Assembly (NCBI GenBank): GCA_021228405.1
Contig: JAJQRF010000002.1
Span: forward strand, 868,001-932,000
Reading direction: 5' to 3'
DNA from: Pyrinomonadaceae bacterium
Lineage (GTDB): Bacteria; Acidobacteriota; Blastocatellia; Pyrinomonadales; Pyrinomonadaceae
DNA: 64,000 nt
Position 1 is the stretch's first letter; every line of letters starts with the position of its first letter. Under the pieces are notes generated by a model that made no database searches, had not been told where the DNA came from, and was given only the letters and a program-made list of their open reading frames with translations. Shown in pieces: positions 14,147 through 27,681 of the stretch. Both the position numbers and the translations under genes were made by a program.

Positions 14147-14166
14147 AATAAAAAAAGTTAAAGGAA

Positions 14167-14204
14167 AAAAGGCACGGGAAACTGTTTCCCGTGCCTTTTT
14201 TATT
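14167..14204 (+). terminator. Terminator after the YceI gene
   Basis: Stem AAAAAGGCACGGGAAAC / GTTTCCCGTGCCTTTTT with a tiny loop, followed by T residues. Confidence 0.9.
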
Positions 14205-14324: not shown

Positions 14325-16196
14325 ATGCGTTGGTCATTTCTCAAAATTTCGGTGCTCGTGTTGGCAGTAGTAACAGCCGTTTTTGCCGCGTATCAGTTTT
14401 ATAAAATCAATCGCTCCGTCCAACAAACGCTTGCCGAAACACGCGCCCGCCTGATAGACAAAGATCGCGTTCCCTTTGAAAAAAAAATTCTCACTCCTCA
14501 CCTTTCCAACAAAGTAAAAATTATCCAAAACACGAATGAAACGCGTGCCTTCGTAAAATTCAGAGATTCGTTTTTTGCGGCAACGAACGGCGGACTTTTG
14601 CAGTTGGATGAAATCGGAAACACGGAAAAACATTTCACCGTTTTGGACGGTTTGCCCGAAAGCGATCTGACCGCGCTTTTTGTTTGGAACAACAAACTTT
14701 TCATCGGCACGCGCTCGAAAAATCTTGTTACGTTCGACGGCGAACGCTTTGAAAATTACGTCTGGACCGACCGAAAAGCACAAACCGTGACGGCATTTCT
14801 CGAACGCGGCGGAAAGCTTCTGATCGGAACTTTCGCGGGCGGTTTGCTGGAGTTTGACGGCGAAAATTTTACCGAGATCAAAACCGAAAACGAACGCATC
14901 GTCGCCGTCAATTGTCTGTTTCGGGAAAACTCAAAACTTTTTGTCGGAACATTTAACAACGGGTTGTTAATTTATCAAAACGATGTCTGGACAAGATTTT
15001 CGACGGCTGAAAATCTGCCGTCAAATCGTATCGTCGGCATCGCTTCGCACGAAAAAAATCTGTATATTTCGACGGATTTGGGTTTGGCGGTTTGGCAGGA
15101 AAACAGTATTCGGAAAATTTCGGAAATTCCGATGCTCGCATCAAGCATTTCATTTGAAAACAAACTTTTCTTAACTAAAGAAAACGGTAAAATTTACGTT
15201 TTCGATAAAAGCCTGAAGGAATTTCCCACGCAGGAAAATTTGCAAAATGCGCGGCTCGATTCGACTGACGAAAAACTGTTTTTGCTTTCAAATAAAGGTA
15301 TTGCGCAGATCGACGGGACAAAGATAAAACCTTTTCCGAAAGCGGAAAATTCTTCGCTGACCGACAATTTCGTTTCAGCAATCGCTTTCGATAAACGCGA
15401 AAATCTCTGGGTCGGCACTTTCCGTAACGGGCTCGACGTTTTTTCACCAGACGGCAGAAAGATCAAACATCTCGAAGATGAAACCGTGCGCGAGATAAAT
15501 TTTCTCAAGGCTGATGATGAAACCGTTTCAGCCGCCGCTTCGAGCGGTTTGTTAAATTTCAAAAACGATTTTTCCTTTGAAATTCTGACCAGAAACGAAG
15601 GATTGCCGTCAAATTCCATCACTCATTTTACGACCGACCTGACGGCAACGGCGCGCGGTTTGGCGTTTCGCGAAAACGGAAAAATCCGTGCGCTTTCCGC
15701 TCTCAATGGTTTGCCCAACAATGCCGTTTACACGGTCTTGCAAAACGGCGAAAAAATCTATGCGGGAACGCTCGGCGGGCTTGCCGAAATTCAAAATAAA
15801 AAAGTCGTCCGCACCTTCAAAGATTCAAATTCAAATCTCAAAACTAACTGGGTAACGGCTTTAATTTCAGTAAATGAAAGAATTTTTGTCGGAACTTACG
15901 GCGGCGGATTTTTTGAATTGTTGCCTTCGGGCGAGATTCATTCGTTTGAAGCCGAAACCGGAAAATTTACGGTCAATCCGAACGCGATTTTTGCGGACGA
16001 AAACAAAATCTACCTCGGAACTCTGGAAGGCGCAAAGATTTTCGATCTGCAAACGCAGAAATGGTCGAGCGTTAAAAATATTCTGCCCGCCGAAACCGTT
16101 CTAGCGATTGCAGGCGAGGAAAAAAATATCTATTTCGGCACGACAAACGGCATCGCAAAGATCGAAAAAAACTATTTCACGGATGAAGAAAGATGA
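14325..16196 (+). CDS. Membrane-anchored beta-propeller protein (Reg_prop-like)
   Basis: 623 residues from the ATG at 14325; the frame is open to 14223 but the extra 34 codons look non-coding. Residues 1-30 form one membrane helix or uncleaved signal. The rest is a series of ~40-residue blades with motifs such as LFIGTRSKNLVTFDGERF, LLIGTFAGGLLEFDG, LWVGTFRNGLDVFSPDGR and VGTYGGGFFELLPSG, the two-component-regulator propeller type. No kinase or DNA-binding domain follows, so it is an isolated extracytoplasmic propeller. It overlaps the next gene by 4 bp (ATGA at 16193-16196), showing translational coupling in a four-gene operon. Confidence 0.8.
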   Translation: MRWSFLKISVLVLAVVTAVFAAYQFYKINRSVQQTLAETRARLIDKDRVPFEKKILTPHLSNKVKIIQNTNETRAFVKFRDSFFAATNGGLLQLDEIGNTEKHFTVLDGLPESDLTALFVWNNKLFIGTRSKNLVTFDGERFENYVWTDRKAQTVTAFLERGGKLLIGTFAGGLLEFDGENFTEIKTENERIVAVNCLFRENSKLFVGTFNNGLLIYQNDVWTRFSTAENLPSNRIVGIASHEKNLYISTDLGLAVWQENSIRKISEIPMLASSISFENKLFLTKENGKIYVFDKSLKEFPTQENLQNARLDSTDEKLFLLSNKGIAQIDGTKIKPFPKAENSSLTDNFVSAIAFDKRENLWVGTFRNGLDVFSPDGRKIKHLEDETVREINFLKADDETVSAAASSGLLNFKNDFSFEILTRNEGLPSNSITHFTTDLTATARGLAFRENGKIRALSALNGLPNNAVYTVLQNGEKIYAGTLGGLAEIQNKKVVRTFKDSNSNLKTNWVTALISVNERIFVGTYGGGFFELLPSGEIHSFEAETGKFTVNPNAIFADENKIYLGTLEGAKIFDLQTQKWSSVKNILPAETVLAIAGEEKNIYFGTTNGIAKIEKNYFTDEER

Positions 16197-18613
16197 AAAA
16201 TTTTAAAGCAAAGGCGCAAAATCGCGGAGAAAATGGGAAAAAGGCGGCTTCGGGAAAATTCGTAAAACCAAAATTCTATTTCAAAGAGATATTGCGTCTT
16301 TGCGTCTTTGCGTTTCAGATTTTCTTTACATTCCATTTGGCGGTCGCGCAGTCGGGCGTTTTGCTCCCGTTGCCGGCGGCAAAACCTGACTCGAAAGTTC
16401 TCTCGCTTGCCGTGATGAATGTCGAAATTCTTATTGATAACCAGCACGCAACCGTTAAATTGATGCAGATTTTTGACAATCACACGGCAAACACACTCGA
16501 AGGAAAATACGTTTTCGCGCTTCCAGATTCTTCCTTGATTTCGGATTTCGCCGTTTGGGACAACGATACGCGCATTCCGGGTGTGATGATCGAAAATCGC
16601 CGCGCAAATCAGATTTACGGACAAATAAAACAAACAATGACCGACCCCGGAATTTTGCAGACGACCGACGAAACCGAAAGCGCGAGCGGGTTTTCGGCAA
16701 AGATTTTTCCGATCAACGGGTTCGGAACAAAACGGCTCGAAATGGAATACACGGAAGATTTGGCAGTCGAAAATCTCACGTCGAATTTTACTTTTCCGCT
16801 CAAACCGTCTTACGGCGAATCGCAAACGGTCGGCGAATTCAATCTGAAAATCCGCGTCGTCAGCGATTTCGGCTTTGCACGAATCGAGAGTGAAAATCAG
16901 CCGTTACCGCTCGCAATATCGAAGGATGAACCGCACGAATTTATCGGCGAATTTCACGCTCGAAACATTGAACTGAAAGATGATTTTTCATTCGGTTATC
17001 AGATAAATGTCCCCGAAAATTCGCTTTCCGTTCTGGCGTATCGGGCACCCGAAACGATTTCCGCTTACGATCTGCGCGATCCTTCTACAGCAAACAAAAA
17101 CGCTGACGGATTTTTTCAGGCAAACGCAATATTTGCCGAAAATCAAAACGAAACGCGCCAGCCGAAACGCGTTTTGCTGTTGCTCGACACGTCGCTTTCA
17201 ATGTATGGCGATAAAATTTCACGAGCCGTCGAAGCCGTCGATTTTTTTCTGCACGATCTCACGCCCGAAGACGAATTTAACGTCGTTCTATTCAATGATG
17301 AAACCGGTCTTTTTACGACGCAGAAAGTTTCGGGAACCCCGGAAAATATTGAAAATGCGTTGCAGTTCGTCAAAAAATCTTCACTCGGCGGCGGCACGAA
17401 CCTGAAACAGGCTTTTGAAAGATCACTCGAACAAATCAAACTTTTTTCCGGCGGAGAAAAACAGATTGTGTTGATTTCAGACGCAAATCCGACGCTCGGC
17501 ACCTTGCAGACGCGCGCGATCGAAAAGGTTTTTGAAGGTCAAAATGCCAGACTTTTCGCCTTTGCTTTCGGTGCGGATGCAAACGAAAATCTGCTCCAGT
17601 CTTTGACCGAAAAGACGCACGGATATTTTGAAACAGCCCGCGAAACCGAAGATATTTCCTTAAAACTCAAAATATTTCTCGCTAAGATCGGCGTGAGCGA
17701 TATTTCAAATCTCAAGCTTTCGTCAGGCGACGAAGCGAATCTTTACGACATTTACCCGAGCGGCGAAAATTCATTTTTCGGTTCGGAGTTTTCGTTCGTC
17801 GGTCGCTATAAAACACCGAAAAATCAGAAGTTTGATATTTCGGCGAATTTCGGCTCGGAGAAAATCGAACTCACACGCGAAGCCGTTTTGCCCGAATTTG
17901 ATGAAACACACGGATTTTTGCCGCGAGTTTGGGCGCGGGCGCGGGTAAATTTTTTGATTCAGGCGATGAATCACGACGGCGAACGCGAAGACTACATTTC
18001 CGAGATCATCCGGCTTTCGCAAAAATATAAATTTGTCACTCCTTACACGGCTTTTCTCGCCGCGCCGCGCGCGCTTTTGCGTCCGCGTCTGATCCAACCG
18101 GGCGATCCTGTCATTCGTGTCAAAACCGATGAATCCGTTAAGGAAGTTTTTGCCGTTTTGCCGTTCGGCGAAACATTGCCGCTAAAGTTTCTGGAATCGG
18201 AAAAAGTTTGGGAAACGCGCTTTCTCGCGCCTGTCTGGATGACCGACGGAACTTATAAATGCCGTTTGATCCTGAGCGACAAAAACGGGAACGGCTACAC
18301 GGAAGATAAAACCTTTGTCGTGGACAGCCGCGCTCCGAAGGTAAAAATAAACCTCGAAAAAACCTCGTTTCAAGCGGGCGAGGAAATCGCGCTCAAAGTT
18401 TCATCCGACAGCGACACAAATCGGCTTTTCGCCAGAATTTACGGCGCGAAACCCATCCGGCTTTTTTGGTCGAAGGCGGACAAAACGAACGTCGGAAATT
18501 TGAAAATCCCAACCGAACTGGCTTCGGGAAAATACACGCTGACCGTCACGGCAGAAGATTTCGCACATAATCAAACCGCGGAAGAAATGCAGATCGAGAT
18601 TTTAGGAAAATAG
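16193..18613 (+). CDS. Exported VIT + VWA domain protein
   Basis: 806 residues. A basic leader and a signal peptide end at VAQ (about residue 53). A VIT domain follows (about residues 70-200, with MQIFDNHTANTLEGKYVFALP and FPINGFGTKRLEMEYTE). The VWA domain starts near residue 325; LLLDTSLSMYG near residue 331 is the MIDAS motif, with GGGTNL as the second metal-binding loop. A C-terminal Ig-like region (about 700-800) closes the protein. The VIT+VWA pairing is known from inter-alpha-trypsin inhibitors and bacterial surface proteins; no sortase signal is present. It is the second gene of the operon, coupled to the propeller gene. Confidence 0.85.
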   Translation: MKNFKAKAQNRGENGKKAASGKFVKPKFYFKEILRLCVFAFQIFFTFHLAVAQSGVLLPLPAAKPDSKVLSLAVMNVEILIDNQHATVKLMQIFDNHTANTLEGKYVFALPDSSLISDFAVWDNDTRIPGVMIENRRANQIYGQIKQTMTDPGILQTTDETESASGFSAKIFPINGFGTKRLEMEYTEDLAVENLTSNFTFPLKPSYGESQTVGEFNLKIRVVSDFGFARIESENQPLPLAISKDEPHEFIGEFHARNIELKDDFSFGYQINVPENSLSVLAYRAPETISAYDLRDPSTANKNADGFFQANAIFAENQNETRQPKRVLLLLDTSLSMYGDKISRAVEAVDFFLHDLTPEDEFNVVLFNDETGLFTTQKVSGTPENIENALQFVKKSSLGGGTNLKQAFERSLEQIKLFSGGEKQIVLISDANPTLGTLQTRAIEKVFEGQNARLFAFAFGADANENLLQSLTEKTHGYFETARETEDISLKLKIFLAKIGVSDISNLKLSSGDEANLYDIYPSGENSFFGSEFSFVGRYKTPKNQKFDISANFGSEKIELTREAVLPEFDETHGFLPRVWARARVNFLIQAMNHDGEREDYISEIIRLSQKYKFVTPYTAFLAAPRALLRPRLIQPGDPVIRVKTDESVKEVFAVLPFGETLPLKFLESEKVWETRFLAPVWMTDGTYKCRLILSDKNGNGYTEDKTFVVDSRAPKVKINLEKTSFQAGEEIALKVSSDSDTNRLFARIYGAKPIRLFWSKADKTNVGNLKIPTELASGKYTLTVTAEDFAHNQTAEEMQIEILGK
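16204..16317. repeat. Palindrome D14 spanning the signal-peptide codons
   Basis: The left arm (AAAGCAAAGGCGCAAAAT region from 16204) is a degenerate reverse complement of the right arm at about 16290-16317, where TTGCGTCT recurs. Both arms lie within the leader and signal-peptide codons of the VIT+VWA gene. Confidence 0.6.
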
Positions 18614-18624
18614 AGAATTTTTTT

Positions 18625-18748
18625 CCGCAGATGAACGCAAATGAACCCGAATCTTTTTGATGAGAAACCGTATGAAAGAAAAATTTGCCGCAAAATTTAA
18701 AACATTAAATCTGAAAAAATATCTGTGTCTGTCTGTGTTCATCGGCGG
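18625..18748. repeat. Palindrome D13 spanning the start of the giant gene
   Basis: Left arm 18625-18647 (GCAGATGAACGCAAATGAAC words) lies just upstream of the start codon; the reverse-complementary right arm (CTGTGTCTGTCTGTGTTCAT words, to 18748) lies within the codons of the membrane/signal segment. Confidence 0.65.
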
Positions 18749-21700
18749 CTCATTTTTCTTTTTCAATCTGCAAAGACCGGACGTTTCAGCCGAAAATTCG
18801 ACGAATGAAATCGAAAAAGCGATTTTCACGCGGCAGGAATTTTTCGGCGCAAGTGCTCTCGTGCCGATTCCGACCGCCGAAGCAAGGGAAAATCTTTCAA
18901 AAATTGCCGAAAATTCTCCCGACGATCCGAAAATATTGGAGAAGCTTGCCGAATTTGACGAAAAACTTGCGCGGTTCGACGAAGCGGAAAAAAAACTCAT
19001 TCGTTTGAGCGAAATCGATGCGTCAAAGCGCGAAAATCTGGCGGCTTTTTATCATCGCCGCGCCGAATTTGAAAAGGAAGCCGATATTTTCAAACAAATT
19101 CTCTTTTCGACCAAAGCCGAAAATCGGGCATATTATTTTGAAAGATTGACCCAACTCGCCCGCCGTCACGATTTGCCGCAGTATTTGAATAATGATTTTT
19201 TCGGGCAGATTGCAAAGGAAAGTCCTGACCTTTTCGATGTTTTCGCGAGCATCATAAAAAATCTGACCGAAACGGAAAATTATGAGGAAGCCTTGAAATT
19301 TGTGCGTTTGGCGAAAGCTCAATTTCCCGGAAATCGTAATTTTTTGCTTAGAAAGGAAGTCGATCTTTTACTTTCACTCGATAAGGCTGTTGAAGCCGAA
19401 AAACTCTATCAAGCGGCTTTCGATCCTTTGTGGGATGAAAAGGAAGCCGAAAAGTTTTACGAATTTCTCGACAACCGCGACCGTTTGCGGGCATACGGTG
19501 CAGAAATAAAGGCGCGTTTTCGTCAAAATCCGGCGGATTTCGATGCCGCGATTCGTCTTGCGCTTTATCAAAATCACGATAACGAATACGGCAACGATTC
19601 AGCCGCGCCGATCATTTTAAGGCTCGAACAAAACAAAAAATCCTGGACGACCGAAGAACTCGTCACGGCGACGCGAATCTTACTGCGCGCTAACGACGCG
19701 GAACTTGCTTCACGTTTTCTTTACACGCTTTACGTCCGTGAAGATTTCAGGCAAAACAGCGAGCTTCGCGCCAAAATCCTGTATCAGCTTTTCGAGATGT
19801 TTTCAGATGCCGAAACGCGAAAATTACCGATCACGAAAGGCGATCTGAGTTTTTACGAAGACATTGCCAAAGCCGACGTAAATCCGGGAATTACGACCGG
19901 AATTCTCTCATTGATCTTTTCCGATTCAGACCCGCGAGCCGAATTAAGAAAACAGGAAACTGCGGCAAACAGATATTTTAACCGCGCTGCCGCCTATCGG
20001 ATTTTTGAAGAATATAAAGAGGAAAATCCGAATTCGCCCGAACTCGCCCGGATGTATCTCGACATTATTCAGCTCTACACGGCGACACAGGAACCCGGTA
20101 TTGCCGAAAAAACGCTCAACGAATTTGCCGAAAAATATGCCGATTCAAGGGATTTTGCCGATGCCGCATTGAAACTTGCCGATGCTTTCATCGCCGTCGA
20201 AAATGAAGAAAAAGCACGTGAAATCTATCAAAAAAATTTAGATTTTTTAGGAAAGCAAGGAAAATTTCACGCTGTCAAAAAGCAAGAAACTTACGAAGAT
20301 TTTGATTCTGAAGATGAAGAAACAAATGAAAAAGTTTCTCCTGACAAAACTCAGGGAATTAATATCCCGACGACCGAAAAGCCGCAAACCGAATATTACA
20401 CGGGCGAATCCGAAGGCAGGTTCCACGATTATCTGGCGCAGGGCGAAGATGAAATAGTTTATGCGGATATTTTGGAAAAGCTCGTTTCGCTCTATTCAAA
20501 AGATAAAAAAACAGGCGAAATTCTCGCGCTTTATTCAAACGAAATCCGGAAATATCCGAATCAGGAATGGCTTTACGAAGAACGGCTTGCGTGGCTCGAA
20601 CAGACGAGTTTGACGGAAGAAAAGTTAGAATTTTACAAACTTGCGCTCGAAAAATTTCAGACGCGAAGCTGGCAGGACAAACTCGCGAGATTTTTCGTTC
20701 GTGAAAAATGGAACGACGATTTTGTCGCTTTTTCCGAAGATTTGATGGGAAAACTGAACGATGAAGAAGTTGCGGACTATCTTTCAAAATTTGCCGAACC
20801 GAAACAATTTCAGGGCGAATTGGAAAAACAAATTTACTTCAAGCTTTATACTTCGGCACACGAAAAATTTCCGCATAACGTCTTTTTCGTCAGCGGTTTA
20901 TTGCAGTTTTACAAAAATCACGGACAGCCCGAAGATTGGCGAAAACTGTGCGCGGAGTATTATTTTGAATCAAAGGAAATTCGCGAAATATTTCTCGATC
21001 ATTTGGCTGAAAAAGGTGAACTTCGGGCGTATTTGGAAAACGCGGAAAAAGATTCGGGCATTTATGAACTTTTCCGCGCCGATGCTTTCGTGCGGCTTTC
21101 AAATTATGAAAATGCGATTCCGGCTTATCGAAAACTCAATGAAATTTATCCTAATTCGCCCGAATTTTCGGAAAGATTAATTTCGTTTACGCGTTCGTTC
21201 GGACAAAAAAATCGTGAAATTTTGAGCGAATCGGCAACTCTTGCCAAAAATCGGGCGGATATTTCGCCAAGCGACACGGTTTATCAAACGACAAGCGGCG
21301 AGATTTTTGCCGAGCTCGGAGATTACAAAAAAGCGCGGGAAGAATGGCGGAAATTGATCGGCACGGAACGGGGCGAAAAGGAAATTTATCTCGAAACGGC
21401 GACCGTTTTCTGGGATTATTTTCAATATGACGATGCGCTCGAAACGATCCGAAATTTGCGCGCAAAACATTCTGACGACACGCTTTATGCTTTTGAAACA
21501 GGCGCGCTTTATGAAGCCAGGCACGAACAAGATCAGGCAATCGCAGAATATATCAAAGCTCTCGGCGCAACGGGCGAAGACGAAAATCAAAAATCGAAAG
21601 CCGTTAATCGTTTGGCGGTTTTAGCTTCGCGGTCAAAGGAAAATGCACGGCAAATTGAAATCGCTTTTGCGAATAAAAAAGATAAAAACGCCGATTACGT

Positions 21701-24700
21701 TTCGCTTGGGTTTGCCGAATATCTTTTCAAAACAAAAAATTACGGGAAAGGGGAAGATATTTTAAGCAAAGCGATCGGCAACAGTTCGGACGAAGTTTTT
21801 CTTGCCGACGTGCACGATTTTTACCAGTCGAATGAATGGGAGTCAGGCAAGAAATTCGCGCCGGGAAAACAGAGTGCCTTGAAAAGACTGGCGGAAACCG
21901 CTGACGTACCGCGCCTGAAGATCAAATATTCTTTGGAACTTTCCGAGTCGTTGCAGGAAAATAACGAACGTGAAAAAGCGAAAAATATTTTGCAAAACCT
22001 CGTTCGGCAGTTTCCGACAAATTATGGCGTTCTGGCGGCGAGTTCGGCGCGTTTGGGCGAACTCGGCTTTGAAAAGGATGCGGCGAAAATATTGCAAAAC
22101 GCTCTGCCGAAAAGTAAAAGCGTTTATCGAAATTCGCTTGCCGGGAAACTTTCAAAGATTTTGATAAGAACGAATCAAACCGATTCAGCCGAAAGAATTT
22201 TGGTCGAACTTCACGCCGGAAATCCTGGAAATAAGAACATTTTCCGCGAACTTGTCAAAGTTTGCATTCGCACCGGAAAAGCCGAACTGATGCGGAAATC
22301 CTTTGCTGAAACAGTTGTCGAAATTAAGAAATCTGACGAAGAAAGACGCTTTATCGATGAGGAAATCGCCGAACTTCGCAGCGAAATGATCGATGCTTTT
22401 ACACGTTTGAAAGATTACAAATCGGCGGTCGAGCAACACATTGAAATTATCAATCGCGAACCTGAAAACGAAGAGTTGACCGAATCGGCGATCCGTTACG
22501 TTCAGCGTTACGGCGGCGCGGAAACGCTTTTGAATTATTATCTGAAAACCTCTGCCGAAGCGTTCAAAAATTACCGCTGGAACCTGGTTTTGGCGCGTAT
22601 TTACGAAGCGAACAACGATCTGGAAAAAGCGGCGGAAAATTATAAAACCGCGATTCAGAACCAACCCGAAATGTTTGAACTTTATCTTTCGCTTGCCGAA
22701 GTCGAAGCGAAAAGAAGCAATTTCGAGGCGGCGATCGAAAACATTAACGAGGTTTTGACGCTCACGAACGACCGAAAGGAATATGTGAAAAAGAAGATCG
22801 AGTTACTGAAAAAAGCCGGCAGATTTGCCGAGATCGAAGCCGAAAAAGCCAAACTTCCCGAAGAAGAGGAAAAGAAAATCGTCACGGACGAATTTGCCGA
22901 AGCGCAAAAATTGCAGTTTTCGGAAAAGGAAAAAGCCCGCGAGCTATTCCGTGCGGCATTTGCGAAATTGCTCGAAAATCCGATCACGGAAGAATTCAGC
23001 GCGGCAAATATTTCGGCTTGCGTCGCGTCTTTGCGTGAAGAAGAACCGCTCGACCGGGTCAATCAAAATCTCTGGAATTTGCGCGAAAAACTTGTCGAAA
23101 TCGGCAGTGAAACGAATTCGACCGATTCGGGCGAAGCGCGAAAACGTTTGCAAATTCTCGAATCGGCGATGACCGAAGCGGTCGGAAATATCGTAAAAAC
23201 CACGGCAACAGACGAAGAAGTAAGAAATCTGCACAAATTTCTGGCAGACAAAATCGAGGAAAATTCGTCGGAAACAAATTCGATTCAAACGTTTTCGTTG
23301 GCTCAAAATATGAGCCGCCGCGCAGGTTTCGGCGATCTGGAAGAAAAGATTTTGATAAGGAAAATCGAGGAAAATTCTGCCTTTGCGGAAAAGCAAATTC
23401 ATCTGCAAAACCTTGCTAATTTTTATAATGCACGCGGTGCTTATCAACGAACTTTCGATGCGCTCGAAAAATATGAAAGCAGTGATTCGCTATTCAAAGC
23501 GGAAATGGCGCGGATCGTTGGCAACAAACAAAAAGAAATCGAATATCTGCACAATATTTATTGGAAAACGGGCGAAGACGCGCCGAGCCTGAACGATGAA
23601 AATCTTATCCGTTTTTTTGAAATTCTTTATGCGGAAAATCGCGGCGAACTAAAGGCTTTGACCGAAAAGAACACGCGTTATCAATTGCAATTGATAAATT
23701 TTCTGCTCGGCAAAGGCGAACGCGAATTGACGCATACGGCGATTCAAAATTCGGCGTTTTCCGAAGCGTGGAAGGTATCGCGGCACGCCGAAACTTCGCT
23801 TGCTTTGAAAGAGTTTGACGATCGGAGCGAATGTTATTTTTGCGACGCTTTGCAGTTTGATTCGATTGGAAATCTGACCGTGCAAACGCCTGACAAAAAG
23901 CGTTTTTTAATAAATGACGATTGGTTTCGCCTGTCGCGTCAATACGGCGAATGGCTTTTGGCAAAAGATGATAAGACGATTCCGCCCGCAAAATTTTTGT
24001 CGGCAATGCTCGAAAATCAGCCGAAAAACGCGCTCGAACAATTCAAGCTCGGAAAATTTTATTTCGAGAAAAACGAGCTGAAGCCCGCCATCGAACATTT
24101 GAGTTCGGCAGTTGAACTGGAACCGCAAAACACGGAATTTTGGGTAAATCTGGGCGCGCTTTACTTGAAAGCGGGAAAAGCGGATTTTGCCGAAAAATGT
24201 TTTGAGAAGACGTTGTCGACAAATTCATACGAAAGCTATCGGCTTTATTTCCAAACACTTGAAAGATACGGTTTTGCCGAAAAAGCGCGTGAAAAAATGC
24301 AGTCGAAAATTGTCGAAGCTTTGGAAAAAGCCGACGTTGACAATTATCAAGAGTTGCAGGAATTGGTTCGCAGCATTGCCGCATCGTTTAGAGATGACGG
24401 GGAAAAATCTGCGTATTTCAAGGAAATTTTGCGCCAGCGTCCGACCGATAAATCTCTGACGGAAATGCTTTTGGACGAAAATCTTTTAGGGAAAAACTCA
24501 CAGAACGAGTTTTTCAGGATACTGATTTCGCGGCTTGAAAAATTTAATCGATACGATTACGACTATGATTTTCGATCAATTTTCGAGAGAGTCTGGTCGC
24601 AAGCCGATGCCGAATCGGTTTATGAACAGGAAAACGATTTTCAAGTAAAAGAGCCGCAAAATGAAAGAATCGAGTGGCAGAGAAAGTATCTCGAACTGCT

Positions 24701-25886
24701 CTTAGAGCAACAAAATAAAGCAGAAGCGGAAAAAATCATCGCCGGGATCGAAGCGGATTTGAACGGGAAATTTGTGCGTCCGGTCTGGTTGAGAACGGCG
24801 CAAATAAATCTGCAAATTCGCGGCGGGAAAGTTGATTTTGACGGGCTTGAAAGATTCACCGGAATTTACGTGAGCGATTCGGCAACGGAAATAATTCCGC
24901 CGAATGTCGAGCGTTTCAACGCCATTTTGGAGGTTCTCAAAGCGGAAGGAAGCGAAGCCGAAATACTTCGTTTGAAAGAAAATTTCTTTGCGCGGATGCT
25001 CGCGCTCGAACAGCTTGAAACGGCAAATTTCGCAGGGTTTGCACGGGTTTTGTTTGAAAAGGGCGATTCGGAAAGAGCTTTACAGGTTTTGCGTTTGATG
25101 ACCTCGGAAAACCGCGAAACGGCTCTGTCGGAAATTTCCGAATTTGCCGAGATCAAAGCAAAATCGGCTAATTCCGCGAAACTTCAAAACGGCTCGGACA
25201 GTTTTCCGGCGCGATCCGATTCCTTGAAAACAGCGGCGGAAATCGCTTCCGAATTCAGGCAAAATGAAACGGCAATCGAATTCAGTCGCAAACTTGCGGA
25301 AATCGTTCCGAATGATTTCGATAACAAGGTTAAATTAGCCGAAATTTTGGCGGCGAACGATAAAAAAGCGGAAGGTTTTGCGATTTTGCACGGCATCATT
25401 GCAGACCGAAACGCCCTTCGTGCGATGCGTTGGCAAGCACGGAAAATTTTAGCCGATGCGGGTGAGGCGGTTGAGCTACCGAATGATAAATTCGATTCTT
25501 TTTCACAGTTTTATAACGGATCAGTTGCTCAAAAATCTGCTCAAAGAGAATTTTCCATTGAGTTTTTCTTAAGTGCGCTGATCGCCGATCAGGAAACGCA
25601 AATCATTGCCAAACAGGAACTTATCAAAATCTATGCGGTGAACGGACACGAAATATTGGCATTAAAAATTGCGGAAGATGATAAAACTCCGAAATCCGAC
25701 GATCTTTTACAAATATTGTCGGAAGCGGCGGAAAGAATCGGTAATTTTCAAAAAGCGGTCGAGTTTGAAAATACAAAAACATCGCCGAATGCGGAAAAAA
25801 TAGCAAATTTGCGGAAGCTCAATAACGTGAAAAATCAAAAAGCGACCGATTTCACGGTCGATGCGGAAAATACGAAAAAAATATGA
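18660..25886 (+). CDS. Giant exported helical-repeat (TPR-type) protein
   Basis: About 2408 residues from the ATG at 18660; a TTG at 18657 and an ATG at 18672 are alternatives. A basic N terminus and a hydrophobic segment (about residues 20-38) act as signal or anchor. The rest is almost wholly alpha-helical with many degenerate tetratricopeptide-like pairs; clear TPRs appear around residues 1310-1370 (WNLVLARIYEANNDLEKAAE) and 1790-1850 (FKLGKFYFEKNELKPAIEHL). It is rich in Glu, Lys and Ala and probably forms a long superhelical scaffold in the periplasm. It lies 46 bp after the VIT+VWA gene and overlaps the next gene by 4 bp. No enzymatic motif found. Confidence 0.8.
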   Translation: MRNRMKEKFAAKFKTLNLKKYLCLSVFIGGSFFFFNLQRPDVSAENSTNEIEKAIFTRQEFFGASALVPIPTAEARENLSKIAENSPDDPKILEKLAEFDEKLARFDEAEKKLIRLSEIDASKRENLAAFYHRRAEFEKEADIFKQILFSTKAENRAYYFERLTQLARRHDLPQYLNNDFFGQIAKESPDLFDVFASIIKNLTETENYEEALKFVRLAKAQFPGNRNFLLRKEVDLLLSLDKAVEAEKLYQAAFDPLWDEKEAEKFYEFLDNRDRLRAYGAEIKARFRQNPADFDAAIRLALYQNHDNEYGNDSAAPIILRLEQNKKSWTTEELVTATRILLRANDAELASRFLYTLYVREDFRQNSELRAKILYQLFEMFSDAETRKLPITKGDLSFYEDIAKADVNPGITTGILSLIFSDSDPRAELRKQETAANRYFNRAAAYRIFEEYKEENPNSPELARMYLDIIQLYTATQEPGIAEKTLNEFAEKYADSRDFADAALKLADAFIAVENEEKAREIYQKNLDFLGKQGKFHAVKKQETYEDFDSEDEETNEKVSPDKTQGINIPTTEKPQTEYYTGESEGRFHDYLAQGEDEIVYADILEKLVSLYSKDKKTGEILALYSNEIRKYPNQEWLYEERLAWLEQTSLTEEKLEFYKLALEKFQTRSWQDKLARFFVREKWNDDFVAFSEDLMGKLNDEEVADYLSKFAEPKQFQGELEKQIYFKLYTSAHEKFPHNVFFVSGLLQFYKNHGQPEDWRKLCAEYYFESKEIREIFLDHLAEKGELRAYLENAEKDSGIYELFRADAFVRLSNYENAIPAYRKLNEIYPNSPEFSERLISFTRSFGQKNREILSESATLAKNRADISPSDTVYQTTSGEIFAELGDYKKAREEWRKLIGTERGEKEIYLETATVFWDYFQYDDALETIRNLRAKHSDDTLYAFETGALYEARHEQDQAIAEYIKALGATGEDENQKSKAVNRLAVLASRSKENARQIEIAFANKKDKNADYVSLGFAEYLFKTKNYGKGEDILSKAIGNSSDEVFLADVHDFYQSNEWESGKKFAPGKQSALKRLAETADVPRLKIKYSLELSESLQENNEREKAKNILQNLVRQFPTNYGVLAASSARLGELGFEKDAAKILQNALPKSKSVYRNSLAGKLSKILIRTNQTDSAERILVELHAGNPGNKNIFRELVKVCIRTGKAELMRKSFAETVVEIKKSDEERRFIDEEIAELRSEMIDAFTRLKDYKSAVEQHIEIINREPENEELTESAIRYVQRYGGAETLLNYYLKTSAEAFKNYRWNLVLARIYEANNDLEKAAENYKTAIQNQPEMFELYLSLAEVEAKRSNFEAAIENINEVLTLTNDRKEYVKKKIELLKKAGRFAEIEAEKAKLPEEEEKKIVTDEFAEAQKLQFSEKEKARELFRAAFAKLLENPITEEFSAANISACVASLREEEPLDRVNQNLWNLREKLVEIGSETNSTDSGEARKRLQILESAMTEAVGNIVKTTATDEEVRNLHKFLADKIEENSSETNSIQTFSLAQNMSRRAGFGDLEEKILIRKIEENSAFAEKQIHLQNLANFYNARGAYQRTFDALEKYESSDSLFKAEMARIVGNKQKEIEYLHNIYWKTGEDAPSLNDENLIRFFEILYAENRGELKALTEKNTRYQLQLINFLLGKGERELTHTAIQNSAFSEAWKVSRHAETSLALKEFDDRSECYFCDALQFDSIGNLTVQTPDKKRFLINDDWFRLSRQYGEWLLAKDDKTIPPAKFLSAMLENQPKNALEQFKLGKFYFEKNELKPAIEHLSSAVELEPQNTEFWVNLGALYLKAGKADFAEKCFEKTLSTNSYESYRLYFQTLERYGFAEKAREKMQSKIVEALEKADVDNYQELQELVRSIAASFRDDGEKSAYFKEILRQRPTDKSLTEMLLDENLLGKNSQNEFFRILISRLEKFNRYDYDYDFRSIFERVWSQADAESVYEQENDFQVKEPQNERIEWQRKYLELLLEQQNKAEAEKIIAGIEADLNGKFVRPVWLRTAQINLQIRGGKVDFDGLERFTGIYVSDSATEIIPPNVERFNAILEVLKAEGSEAEILRLKENFFARMLALEQLETANFAGFARVLFEKGDSERALQVLRLMTSENRETALSEISEFAEIKAKSANSAKLQNGSDSFPARSDSLKTAAEIASEFRQNETAIEFSRKLAEIVPNDFDNKVKLAEILAANDKKAEGFAILHGIIADRNALRAMRWQARKILADAGEAVELPNDKFDSFSQFYNGSVAQKSAQREFSIEFFLSALIADQETQIIAKQELIKIYAVNGHEILALKIAEDDKTPKSDDLLQILSEAAERIGNFQKAVEFENTKTSPNAEKIANLRKLNNVKNQKATDFTVDAENTKKI

Positions 25887-27604
25887 AGCTGAAATTTTTA
25901 GTTTTGATGGCGGCGATTTGTTTGATCGTTTTGGCGGTTTATTCGCAAATCAAAAAAGATGATTTTGCATCCGCCAAAGATTTTCCGCGTGATGCGCTGG
26001 TTTACGTGCAAGTCGATGATTTGCCTGAAGTTATAAGATTGTGGAATGACTCGAAGATAGCGGAAAAGTATCTTCAAAGCGATAACTTTTCGGATTTTCA
26101 AAATAATCATCTCGGCAGAAAATTGGCAAGCCGTTGGGACGAGTTTAACGTGGCGGCGGGTTTTCAGATAGATTTGGAAACGCTGGCAGGGTTGGCGGAA
26201 AGACGCGCCGCGATTGCGCTTTATGATGTCGGCAAACTCGAATTCGTTTTCATCGCGCCCGTTTCAAACGAAATCTTTGCGGCGACAAGATTTTTGCAAA
26301 ATAAACATAAATTTGCAGAAGAAATTCTGGCGGATGAAACGGTCATTTACCGGGTTGCGGTTGAGGCGGATCGCGGGCGGCAAAAGCAGGAGCTTATTTT
26401 TACACATTGTGAAAACCGTCTGATCGTGGCAACAAGTGAGAAACTGATCGTGCAAACGCTCGCTAACGTAAAGGGAAAATCGCCGAAGAACAGTTTATTT
26501 GAAGAAGCTTCGTTTCAAAATTTGAGCAGTAAAATCTCTTCGCATACGGCGACCGTTTGGCTGAACCAATCCGCGCTGAACGACGACTATTATTTCAAGA
26601 GATACTGGTTGATGTCGGATATGGAAAACCTGAAAAATATTCGCGCAGGAATGTTCGATATTGAAATTCAGGACGAAAAACTGATCGAAAGGCGCAAGTT
26701 TTTACTGAATAAAATACGCCCTGTTGCGCCGCTAAATCTTCAGCAAGCGGAAACTTTGCTTTCGGTCATACCCGCAGAAGTTCCTTTCTACGAATTACGG
26801 CGAGCAGAGAAAAATTCGGCAAACGAAGCAGTTCAAAAGACGATCTTTTACCGCTATGAGCCGCTGGAAAATCTTTATGAAAACAACTTCGTTGAATATG
26901 ACGATTATGAAGGTTATGAATCTTCAGGCAATGATTTTGATGAGAAAATCGATGACATTGAAGAACTTGAAACAGTGCGCCGTGAACTGGAAAATTTCGA
27001 TTTTGCAAAAATTCTGCAATCGGCAAATCCGCAAAGCGTTTTGACTTTCGGCGAACCGAAAGTTTTATCCGCCCCGCTTTTTATCGACTTTGACCGCGCC
27101 GCCGTTTTTTATCTTTCGTCGCCGAACAGCTTTGATCGCGGAGCTTTTGAAACGGAAGTTGCGCGCAGTTTACTGAAAAAGACGATGATTTCCGCGCCGA
27201 ATGTAAATCTGAAATGGGAAACTAAAAACGAAAACAGTTCAAGTTGGCGCGAACTGAAACTGCCGATGCTCGATTGGAATGTTTGCTACGCTTTGCAGGG
27301 AAATAGGTTTATTTTGACAAATAATGCAGTATTTTTGCATAAAATCTTATCGTCAGAAAAAACCGATTTCAAATATGATTCCAAAGATTCGTTTACCAAA
27401 ATTTCAGTGGTCGATCTGACGCAGAAAGATAAAGCCTTTACACAAATCTTTGATGAACTCGAAGCACATTCAATCAACAGCAACTTTTTCGGTCAAAACA
27501 TCGAAAGCCTTATAAAGTCGATCTCAGATGTGAAAAAGATAGAAATTAAACAGTTCGATTCGCAAAATATTTCGGATGAAGAAATTACTTTTCATCTAAA
27601 TTAA
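25883..27604 (+). CDS. Exported protein, DUF3352-like, last gene of the operon
   Basis: 573 residues. Starts with ATG in an ATGA overlap with the giant gene. Residues 1-22 form a signal/anchor. The following DFPRDALVYVQVDDLPEVI, the ELIFTHCENRLIVATSEKLI segment and a second similar half near the C terminus (VCYALQGNRFILTNNAVFL) are reminiscent of DUF3352, which has paired domains of unknown function. An acidic stretch rich in Asp/Glu/Tyr (about residues 332-365) separates the halves. Assignment to DUF3352 is tentative. Being coupled to the propeller, VIT+VWA and giant TPR genes it probably joins the same envelope complex. Confidence 0.6.
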   Translation: MKLKFLVLMAAICLIVLAVYSQIKKDDFASAKDFPRDALVYVQVDDLPEVIRLWNDSKIAEKYLQSDNFSDFQNNHLGRKLASRWDEFNVAAGFQIDLETLAGLAERRAAIALYDVGKLEFVFIAPVSNEIFAATRFLQNKHKFAEEILADETVIYRVAVEADRGRQKQELIFTHCENRLIVATSEKLIVQTLANVKGKSPKNSLFEEASFQNLSSKISSHTATVWLNQSALNDDYYFKRYWLMSDMENLKNIRAGMFDIEIQDEKLIERRKFLLNKIRPVAPLNLQQAETLLSVIPAEVPFYELRRAEKNSANEAVQKTIFYRYEPLENLYENNFVEYDDYEGYESSGNDFDEKIDDIEELETVRRELENFDFAKILQSANPQSVLTFGEPKVLSAPLFIDFDRAAVFYLSSPNSFDRGAFETEVARSLLKKTMISAPNVNLKWETKNENSSSWRELKLPMLDWNVCYALQGNRFILTNNAVFLHKILSSEKTDFKYDSKDSFTKISVVDLTQKDKAFTQIFDELEAHSINSNFFGQNIESLIKSISDVKKIEIKQFDSQNISDEEITFHLN

Positions 27605-27637: not shown

Positions 27638-27681
27638 CAAAAGGCTTTGGAATCGCAGAGATTCGGAAGCCTTTTGTTTTC
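27638..27681 (+). terminator. Terminator of the four-gene operon
   Basis: Stem AAAAGGCTT(T)GGAATC / GATTCGGAAGCCTTTT around 27640-27675, followed by GTTTTCC. It lies 34 bp after the last stop codon. Confidence 0.8.

Follow-up and report, generated by a model that had tools for sequence, protein, structure and literature searches.

What do four tightly packed genes for exported proteins, one of them encoding a protein of 2408 residues, accomplish in an acidobacterium? The question is raised by a 64,000-nucleotide stretch of DNA from Pyrinomonadaceae bacterium (GenBank assembly GCA_021228405.1, contig JAJQRF010000002.1, positions 868,001 to 932,000; hereafter the window), which is part of a 5.72-Mb genome. 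The genes encode a beta-propeller protein (PROP), a protein with a VIT and a VWA domain (VIT-VWA), a giant TPR protein (GIANT) and a fourth protein, P4. The set is an unnamed operon conserved across the phylum and partly related to periplasmic operons of the Yfa/Mag type. We propose, with a probability of roughly 40%, that GIANT scaffolds the four exported proteins into a periplasmic complex, partly akin to the Mag complex, whose task is to guard or repair the cell wall and envelope.

A four-gene operon conserved across Acidobacteriota

All four reading frames open on the forward strand where an initial annotation of the window had placed them: PROP (623 aa, 14325–16196) with an N-terminal membrane anchor and a beta-propeller of the two-component-regulator type, VIT-VWA (806 aa, 16193–18613) with a signal peptide, a VIT domain (75–186), a VWA domain and an immunoglobulin (Ig)-like C-terminal region, GIANT (2408 aa, 18660–25886) with a signal peptide followed by a TPR solenoid, and P4 (573 aa, 25883–27604) with an N-terminal anchor and two similar alpha/beta domains. 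From 5′ to 3′ the junctions measure –4, +46 and –4 bases: the overlaps are ATGA, at 16193 and 25883, and 46 bases separate VIT-VWA from the GIANT gene. Each product carries a hydrophobic N-terminal export or anchor segment (15-residue Kyte–Doolittle maxima 2.77, 2.03, 1.94 and 3.29), while hydropathy and sequence checks of the four window proteins showed neither a second membrane segment nor a lipobox. The same-strand run with its two overlaps and one gap, as well as the notion of an exported set made together, were thus borne out.

Of 60 related genomes, about 24 contain GIANT relatives of full or near full length. Blastocatellia loci on a sufficient contig had the same neighbours, except those with GIANT only or without PROP. 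When 84,980 species genomes were scanned with the GIANT alignment, 121 places emerged. The best 80 were retained, and almost all of their records carry the label Acidobacteriota (L078, L090 and L109 are oddly labelled); the GIANT-bearing taxa comprise Pyrinomonadaceae, other Blastocatellia, Terriglobia, Acidobacteriaceae, Bryobacterales, Granulicella and Candidatus Acidiferrum. One bearer, Granulicella rosea DSM 18704 (locus L110), is culturable. Open reading frames of the scanned loci were scored with profiles of the four families, and 51 loci counted as testable, having no less than 4.8 kb of DNA ahead of the GIANT gene and 2.5 kb behind it. The order PROP – VIT-VWA – GIANT – P4 was found in 45 of the 51 (40 exact, five with a further small gene ahead of P4), a count that expresses linkage given GIANT, because the loci were found through GIANT. 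Among the other six, two lacked PROP, two held GIANT and P4 only and two held GIANT only. The four-gene order spans Blastocatellia, Terriglobia, Bryobacterales and Granulicella at GIANT identities down to about 20%, with median junctions of –4, –17 and –4 bases. Gene order, strand and close spacing are repeated across these 45 loci, so the arrangement is not due to chance. The suggested order of propeller, VIT/VWA, TPR and DUF proteins hence proved to be conserved across the phylum; the homologues co-occur, and GIANT is not confined to a single strain.

Three finished, two-contig genomes (G046, G050 and G054) carry the four genes far apart on the main contig, with one of each kept. The G050 copies map to about 1.74, 2.01, 2.19 and 2.44 Mb; PROP, VIT-VWA and P4 each gave a single strong match there, and no second family member was found in the VIT-VWA, P4 and PROP neighbourhoods of the genomes with scattered genes. 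Retention is therefore independent of linkage. Across about 290 sampled genomes of the phylum, strong bearers numbered 24 for P4, 26 for VIT-VWA and 23 for both; the sole strong-P4 genome without a full VIT-VWA match, G117, contains a partial one. Pairwise distances of the four gene trees correlate with r = 0.966–0.978 (47 sets), values that include the ordinary vertical inheritance of the species and were computed without a control gene. Kept together through deep divergence, and kept even where unlinked, the set therefore does something under selection. The four genes form a conserved unit, which we interpret as a dedicated envelope module that Acidobacteriota, a phylum among the commonest in soil, inherit vertically. 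No named system was found to match the set, and no description of it was found in the literature searched, which leaves out most subscription papers.

Several variants of the locus were observed as well. A gene between GIANT and P4 in some loci (L025:3258-4199; L030:15251-16234; L033:15391-16392; L042:15495-16547; L057:17599-18564) encodes a protein of 313–350 aa with one membrane helix and without a significant Pfam match. Between VIT-VWA and GIANT, three related loci contain a gene whose sequence resembles that of a REP-associated (IS200-type) transposase (L036:12491-12937; L037:10976-11467; L040:6432-6926). GIANT homologues of about 2520–2670 aa without the three partners nearby occur at L039, L041 (the same place as L067), L043, L045, L069 and L077. 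Two sets are present in G038 and G042, the second being scattered; the unlinked second P4 copies (L157:5792-9356, L158:5376-9226) directly follow genes that by eye resemble NfeD and SPFH/stomatin genes.

Cell-wall enzymes and the Yfa/Mag operon

In Terriglobia-type loci, the two commonest neighbours 3′ of P4 encode a penicillin-binding protein (PBP) transpeptidase-domain protein, mostly of 230–300 aa, and a SpoIID/LytB-domain protein. Profile searches of the loci taken from genome contigs placed the transpeptidase (PF00905) directly after P4 in 31 and SpoIID (PF08486) in 28. The transpeptidase gene mostly overlaps P4 by 4 or 13 bases (median junction –4), and 25 of the 31 transpeptidases contain all of the motifs SxxK, SxN and KTGT. 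A SpoIID gene also lies 3′ of P4 in the Blastocatellia locus L034. The initial statement that no enzyme gene accompanies the set is correct for the window and fails for the family: it is true only locally, because most Terriglobia-type loci continue with these two genes. The presence of two wall enzymes beside the set in many relatives hints at a role in wall protection or repair.

The same pair of enzymes connects the set to Escherichia coli yfaQ (DUF2300), which is located within yfaA-T-S-Q-P beside the macroglobulin gene yfaS. The transpeptidase family aligned with the N-terminal part of YfaQ (profile against YfaQ, E = 3.6e-6) and the SpoIID family with the C-terminal part (E = 2.3e-6), so that the two halves of YfaQ correspond to two adjacent genes in Terriglobia-type loci. 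In profile comparison, the N-terminal half of YfaQ matched the acidobacterial transpeptidase family with E = 1.4e-7, compared with 0.41 for FtsI and 0.66 for MrdA, a somewhat flattering contrast given that these controls are single sequences and less sensitive than a profile. This suggests that a YfaQ-type transpeptidase–SpoIID pair is a portable part of two different giant-protein complexes, and it provides a first testable function, namely wall and envelope protection. The literature searched contained no paper in which SpoIID, macroglobulin and penicillin-binding genes are joined in such an operon. The type II alpha-2-macroglobulin operon of Pseudomonas aeruginosa is magABCDEF. Its product MagD resides in the periplasm in a complex with MagA, B and F (PMC5764988), and magD protects P. 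aeruginosa against the peptidoglycan-targeting type VI secretion system (T6SS) effectors VgrG3 and Tae1 (PMC12663445).

Common to the yfa/mag operon and the acidobacterial set are a single operon, exported proteins and one very large protein; in Terriglobia-type loci the YfaQ-type pair is shared too, and an anchored two-domain protein of the YfaA type may be as well. Unlike the large yfa/mag protein, GIANT has no macroglobulin (MG, A2M) domains. Where the yfa/mag operon has the macroglobulin, DUF1175 and DUF2135 proteins, the acidobacterial set has a TPR solenoid, a VIT-VWA protein of the inter-alpha-trypsin inhibitor heavy chain (ITIH) type and a propeller. Proteins of the DUF1175 (YfaT) and DUF2135 (YfaP) types were not seen, in that DUF2135 was not among the Pfam matches of VIT-VWA and no search for the DUF1175 family was made. 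A comparison of the VIT-VWA family with YfaP/DUF2135 gave E = 0.06, which we did not take as evidence. Because a macroglobulin is absent, the set is not a member of the yfa/mag operon family, although parts are shared.

We favour an envelope-guarding or wall-repairing complex because of the ITIH-like VIT-VWA protein, the TPR scaffold, the periplasmic Mag complex and the protection conferred by magD. For the four-gene set, we infer every functional step as follows. The four proteins would assemble in the periplasm, where P4 and PROP may tether the complex to the inner membrane and the TPR solenoid of GIANT would serve as the backbone to which the propeller and the ITIH-like VIT-VWA protein dock. 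The complex might then recognise or restrain envelope damage, such as a foreign hydrolase or broken peptidoglycan, and the transpeptidase and SpoIID proteins, where present, would act on the wall. In this manner it would work like the type II alpha-2-macroglobulin (Yfa/Mag) complex without belonging to it. The initial guess of an envelope or stress complex is compatible with this evidence. A more far-reaching version, which we regard as improbable, is a hitherto undescribed guard in which the ITIH-like VIT-VWA, the 2400-residue TPR solenoid, the propeller and the wall enzymes trap hydrolases or bridge broken peptidoglycan; if true, bacteria would possess, in addition to macroglobulins, another means of defence resembling plasma inhibitors.

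A number of observations weigh against the proposed guard function. The window's operon lacks both the transpeptidase and the SpoIID gene; the sole SpoIID match of its genome lies on another contig, and the genome yielded no transpeptidase relative. The likeness between P4 and YfaA (DUF2138), an anchored protein of about 565 aa in the yfa operon, is weak (E = 0.0056, probability 6.6), and an 18-row P4 profile gave no signal; with a 60-row P4 profile, hhalign reached a score of 31.1 over 180 columns, which exceeded every one of 200 shuffles (maximum 24.4) and nine control proteins, and the colinear alignment ran from the membrane anchor across the first domain. Genes for alpha-2-macroglobulin (A2M) are found elsewhere in 50 of the 60 related genomes, including three in the window's own genome (PF00207, frames of about 2000 aa at G000 C1:57393, C4:587615 and C7:557933); the idea that GIANT simply replaces A2M was dropped for this reason. 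Furthermore, the set is absent from many acidobacterial genomes, with a VIT-VWA match at E ≤ 1e-100 in 33 of 297. Pairwise distances of the four gene trees correlate with r = 0.966–0.978 (47 sets), values that include the ordinary vertical inheritance of the species and were computed without a control gene. An A2M gene 8–14 kb downstream of the second VIT-VWA copy in G042 was treated as chance, since none was seen at the matching copy in G038.

The four proteins and competing explanations

The VIT-VWA protein showed a VIT domain (PF08487, 5.1e-15) followed by a VWA domain (PF13768, 3.4e-17) in Pfam searches, and its best solved relatives are inter-alpha-trypsin inhibitor heavy chains (ITIH4, 1.6e-51; ITIH1, 6e-46), with which it has the VIT-VWA architecture in common (ITIH1, ITIH4; PDB 6fpy, 9c4f). 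Judged by sequence, it is a bacterial counterpart of these heavy chains; it differs from them in being bacterial, in its Ig-like C-terminal region and in having a TPR giant as operon partner. The likeness in sequence and architecture does not in itself show heavy-chain cross-linking or protease inhibition. A protein type familiar from animal plasma is thus placed in a bacterial operon for exported proteins beside cell-wall enzymes. The metal-ion-dependent adhesion site (MIDAS) is intact (D332-S334-S336, T402, D430); across 17 family members D332, S334, S336 and D430 are invariant and T402 is conserved in at least 90%. Of the metal-dependent adhesion VWA originally annotated, the conserved MIDAS stood, and the adhesive role found no support, the closest solved structures being ITIH heavy chains and no adhesion partner or surface anchor having been found.

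The MIDAS could nevertheless bind an external ligand, such as a substrate, a neighbouring cell or a polysaccharide, within an adhesion or matrix complex in which GIANT carries VIT-VWA outward, PROP and P4 anchor or sense, and the transpeptidase and SpoIID genes merely fit an apparatus passing through the wall. The conserved site and the signal peptides agree with such an arrangement, as does the model of sortase-linked VIT-VWA proteins of marine proteobacteria (TIGR03788), which matches the window's protein over much of the length; the VIT and VWA regions of MSEP-CTERM proteins also align. The scores, however, lie far below the respective cut-offs (163.2 versus 551.65 bits for TIGR03788; 34.8 versus 150 bits for MSEP-CTERM/exosortase, TIGR04286), and both identities were rejected, also for want of a sortase, exosortase or sorting tail. 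Sortase, LPXTG motif, exosortase signal, autotransporter and C-terminal hydrophobic tail were all not seen in the window's operon; no sortase was recognised among the window's open reading frames, for which no sortase hidden Markov model (HMM) was run. Moreover, P4 and PROP retain anchors of the inner-membrane type. We therefore consider the adhesion complex unlikely.

All Pfam matches of GIANT are of TPR type (TPR_19, 2.3e-31). The AlphaFold model of residues 1215–2408, the C-terminal half, is helical throughout and forms a continuous solenoid (predicted local distance difference test, pLDDT, 90.6). It resembles scaffolds of large complexes, namely IFT139/TTC21B, Ski3 and Ctr9; the PDB list consists mostly of generic TPR scaffolds at low template-modelling (TM) scores and thus informs on the fold class only. 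PrsT of the XrtA/PEP-CTERM system (TIGR02917), likewise a long exported TPR protein, was rejected as an identity for GIANT (95.1 bits versus a cut-off of 312.2, no exosortase context). The Bat aerotolerance operon, which combines VWA and TPR proteins, was also discarded, as no MoxR or DUF58 gene was recognised in the window's list of open reading frames, in which no HMM search was made.

For P4, the model (pLDDT 86.3) contains two alike alpha/beta domains at about 28–199 and 287–493. The nearest solved fold is Treponema pallidum TP0453 (Z 12.2, root-mean-square deviation 4.2, 210 aligned), where the likeness is one of fold only, at about 10% identity without a sequence match, and a shared fold shows no function; RseB reached Z 5.2–5.7. 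Pfam and NCBIfam contained no match for P4, and its profile retrieved nothing from PDB sequences up to E = 10. The initial label of a DUF3352-like paired-domain protein was accordingly right about the two similar domains in the model and found no support for DUF3352, which gave no Pfam match with P4 and 17 homologues at E up to 1; despite this, a remote superfamily link may exist. DUF3352 is absent from the literature searched.

PROP matched Reg_prop (PF07494, 5.3e-14), with 4a2l and 3v9f as solved relatives; it belongs to a 17-member family and has no kinase domain. TPR–propeller pairs occur elsewhere, with PorZ in type IX secretion and in the IFT-A and Ski complexes of eukaryotes. GIANT and the propeller could accordingly chaperone or sort outer-membrane or surface-layer proteins or lipids as an assembly factory, a view with which the resemblance of GIANT to large scaffolds working with propellers, the weak hit of PROP on the PorZ model (NF052228) and the fold neighbours of P4, TP0453 and RseB, would be consistent. 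The PorZ score of 46.6 bits compares with a cut-off of 260, and PROP was not accepted as PorZ. Genes for a translocase, a barrel or an export apparatus do not travel with the set, and its absence from much of the phylum is unlike core biogenesis, which makes this explanation doubtful, to about the same degree as adhesion.

Least probable is a signalling module in which PROP is a detached two-component sensor and the other three proteins relay a signal in the periplasm, for although in L055, L056, L060, L063 and L070 the operon is immediately preceded, in the same orientation, by genes for a LuxR-type response regulator and a propeller–histidine kinase, most loci, the window included, have no kinase or regulator genes beside them and PROP itself has no kinase domain. 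Given the upstream pair, the operon may respond to an envelope signal in the species of those five loci.

Operon boundaries and flanking genes

Upstream, the operon is preceded by a YceI-type gene, from which it is set apart by a terminator-like hairpin of 17 pairs on the forward strand (14165–14201), marking the upstream boundary. An imperfect inverted repeat followed by T-rich DNA, AAAGGCTT...AAGCCTTT, was read by eye on the forward strand at about 27640–27675 and is probably the terminator at the end of the operon; the hairpin scan missed it because of an inner mismatch. The genes 3′ of the operon, named by eye from the sequence, encode an ArgR-like repressor and argG.

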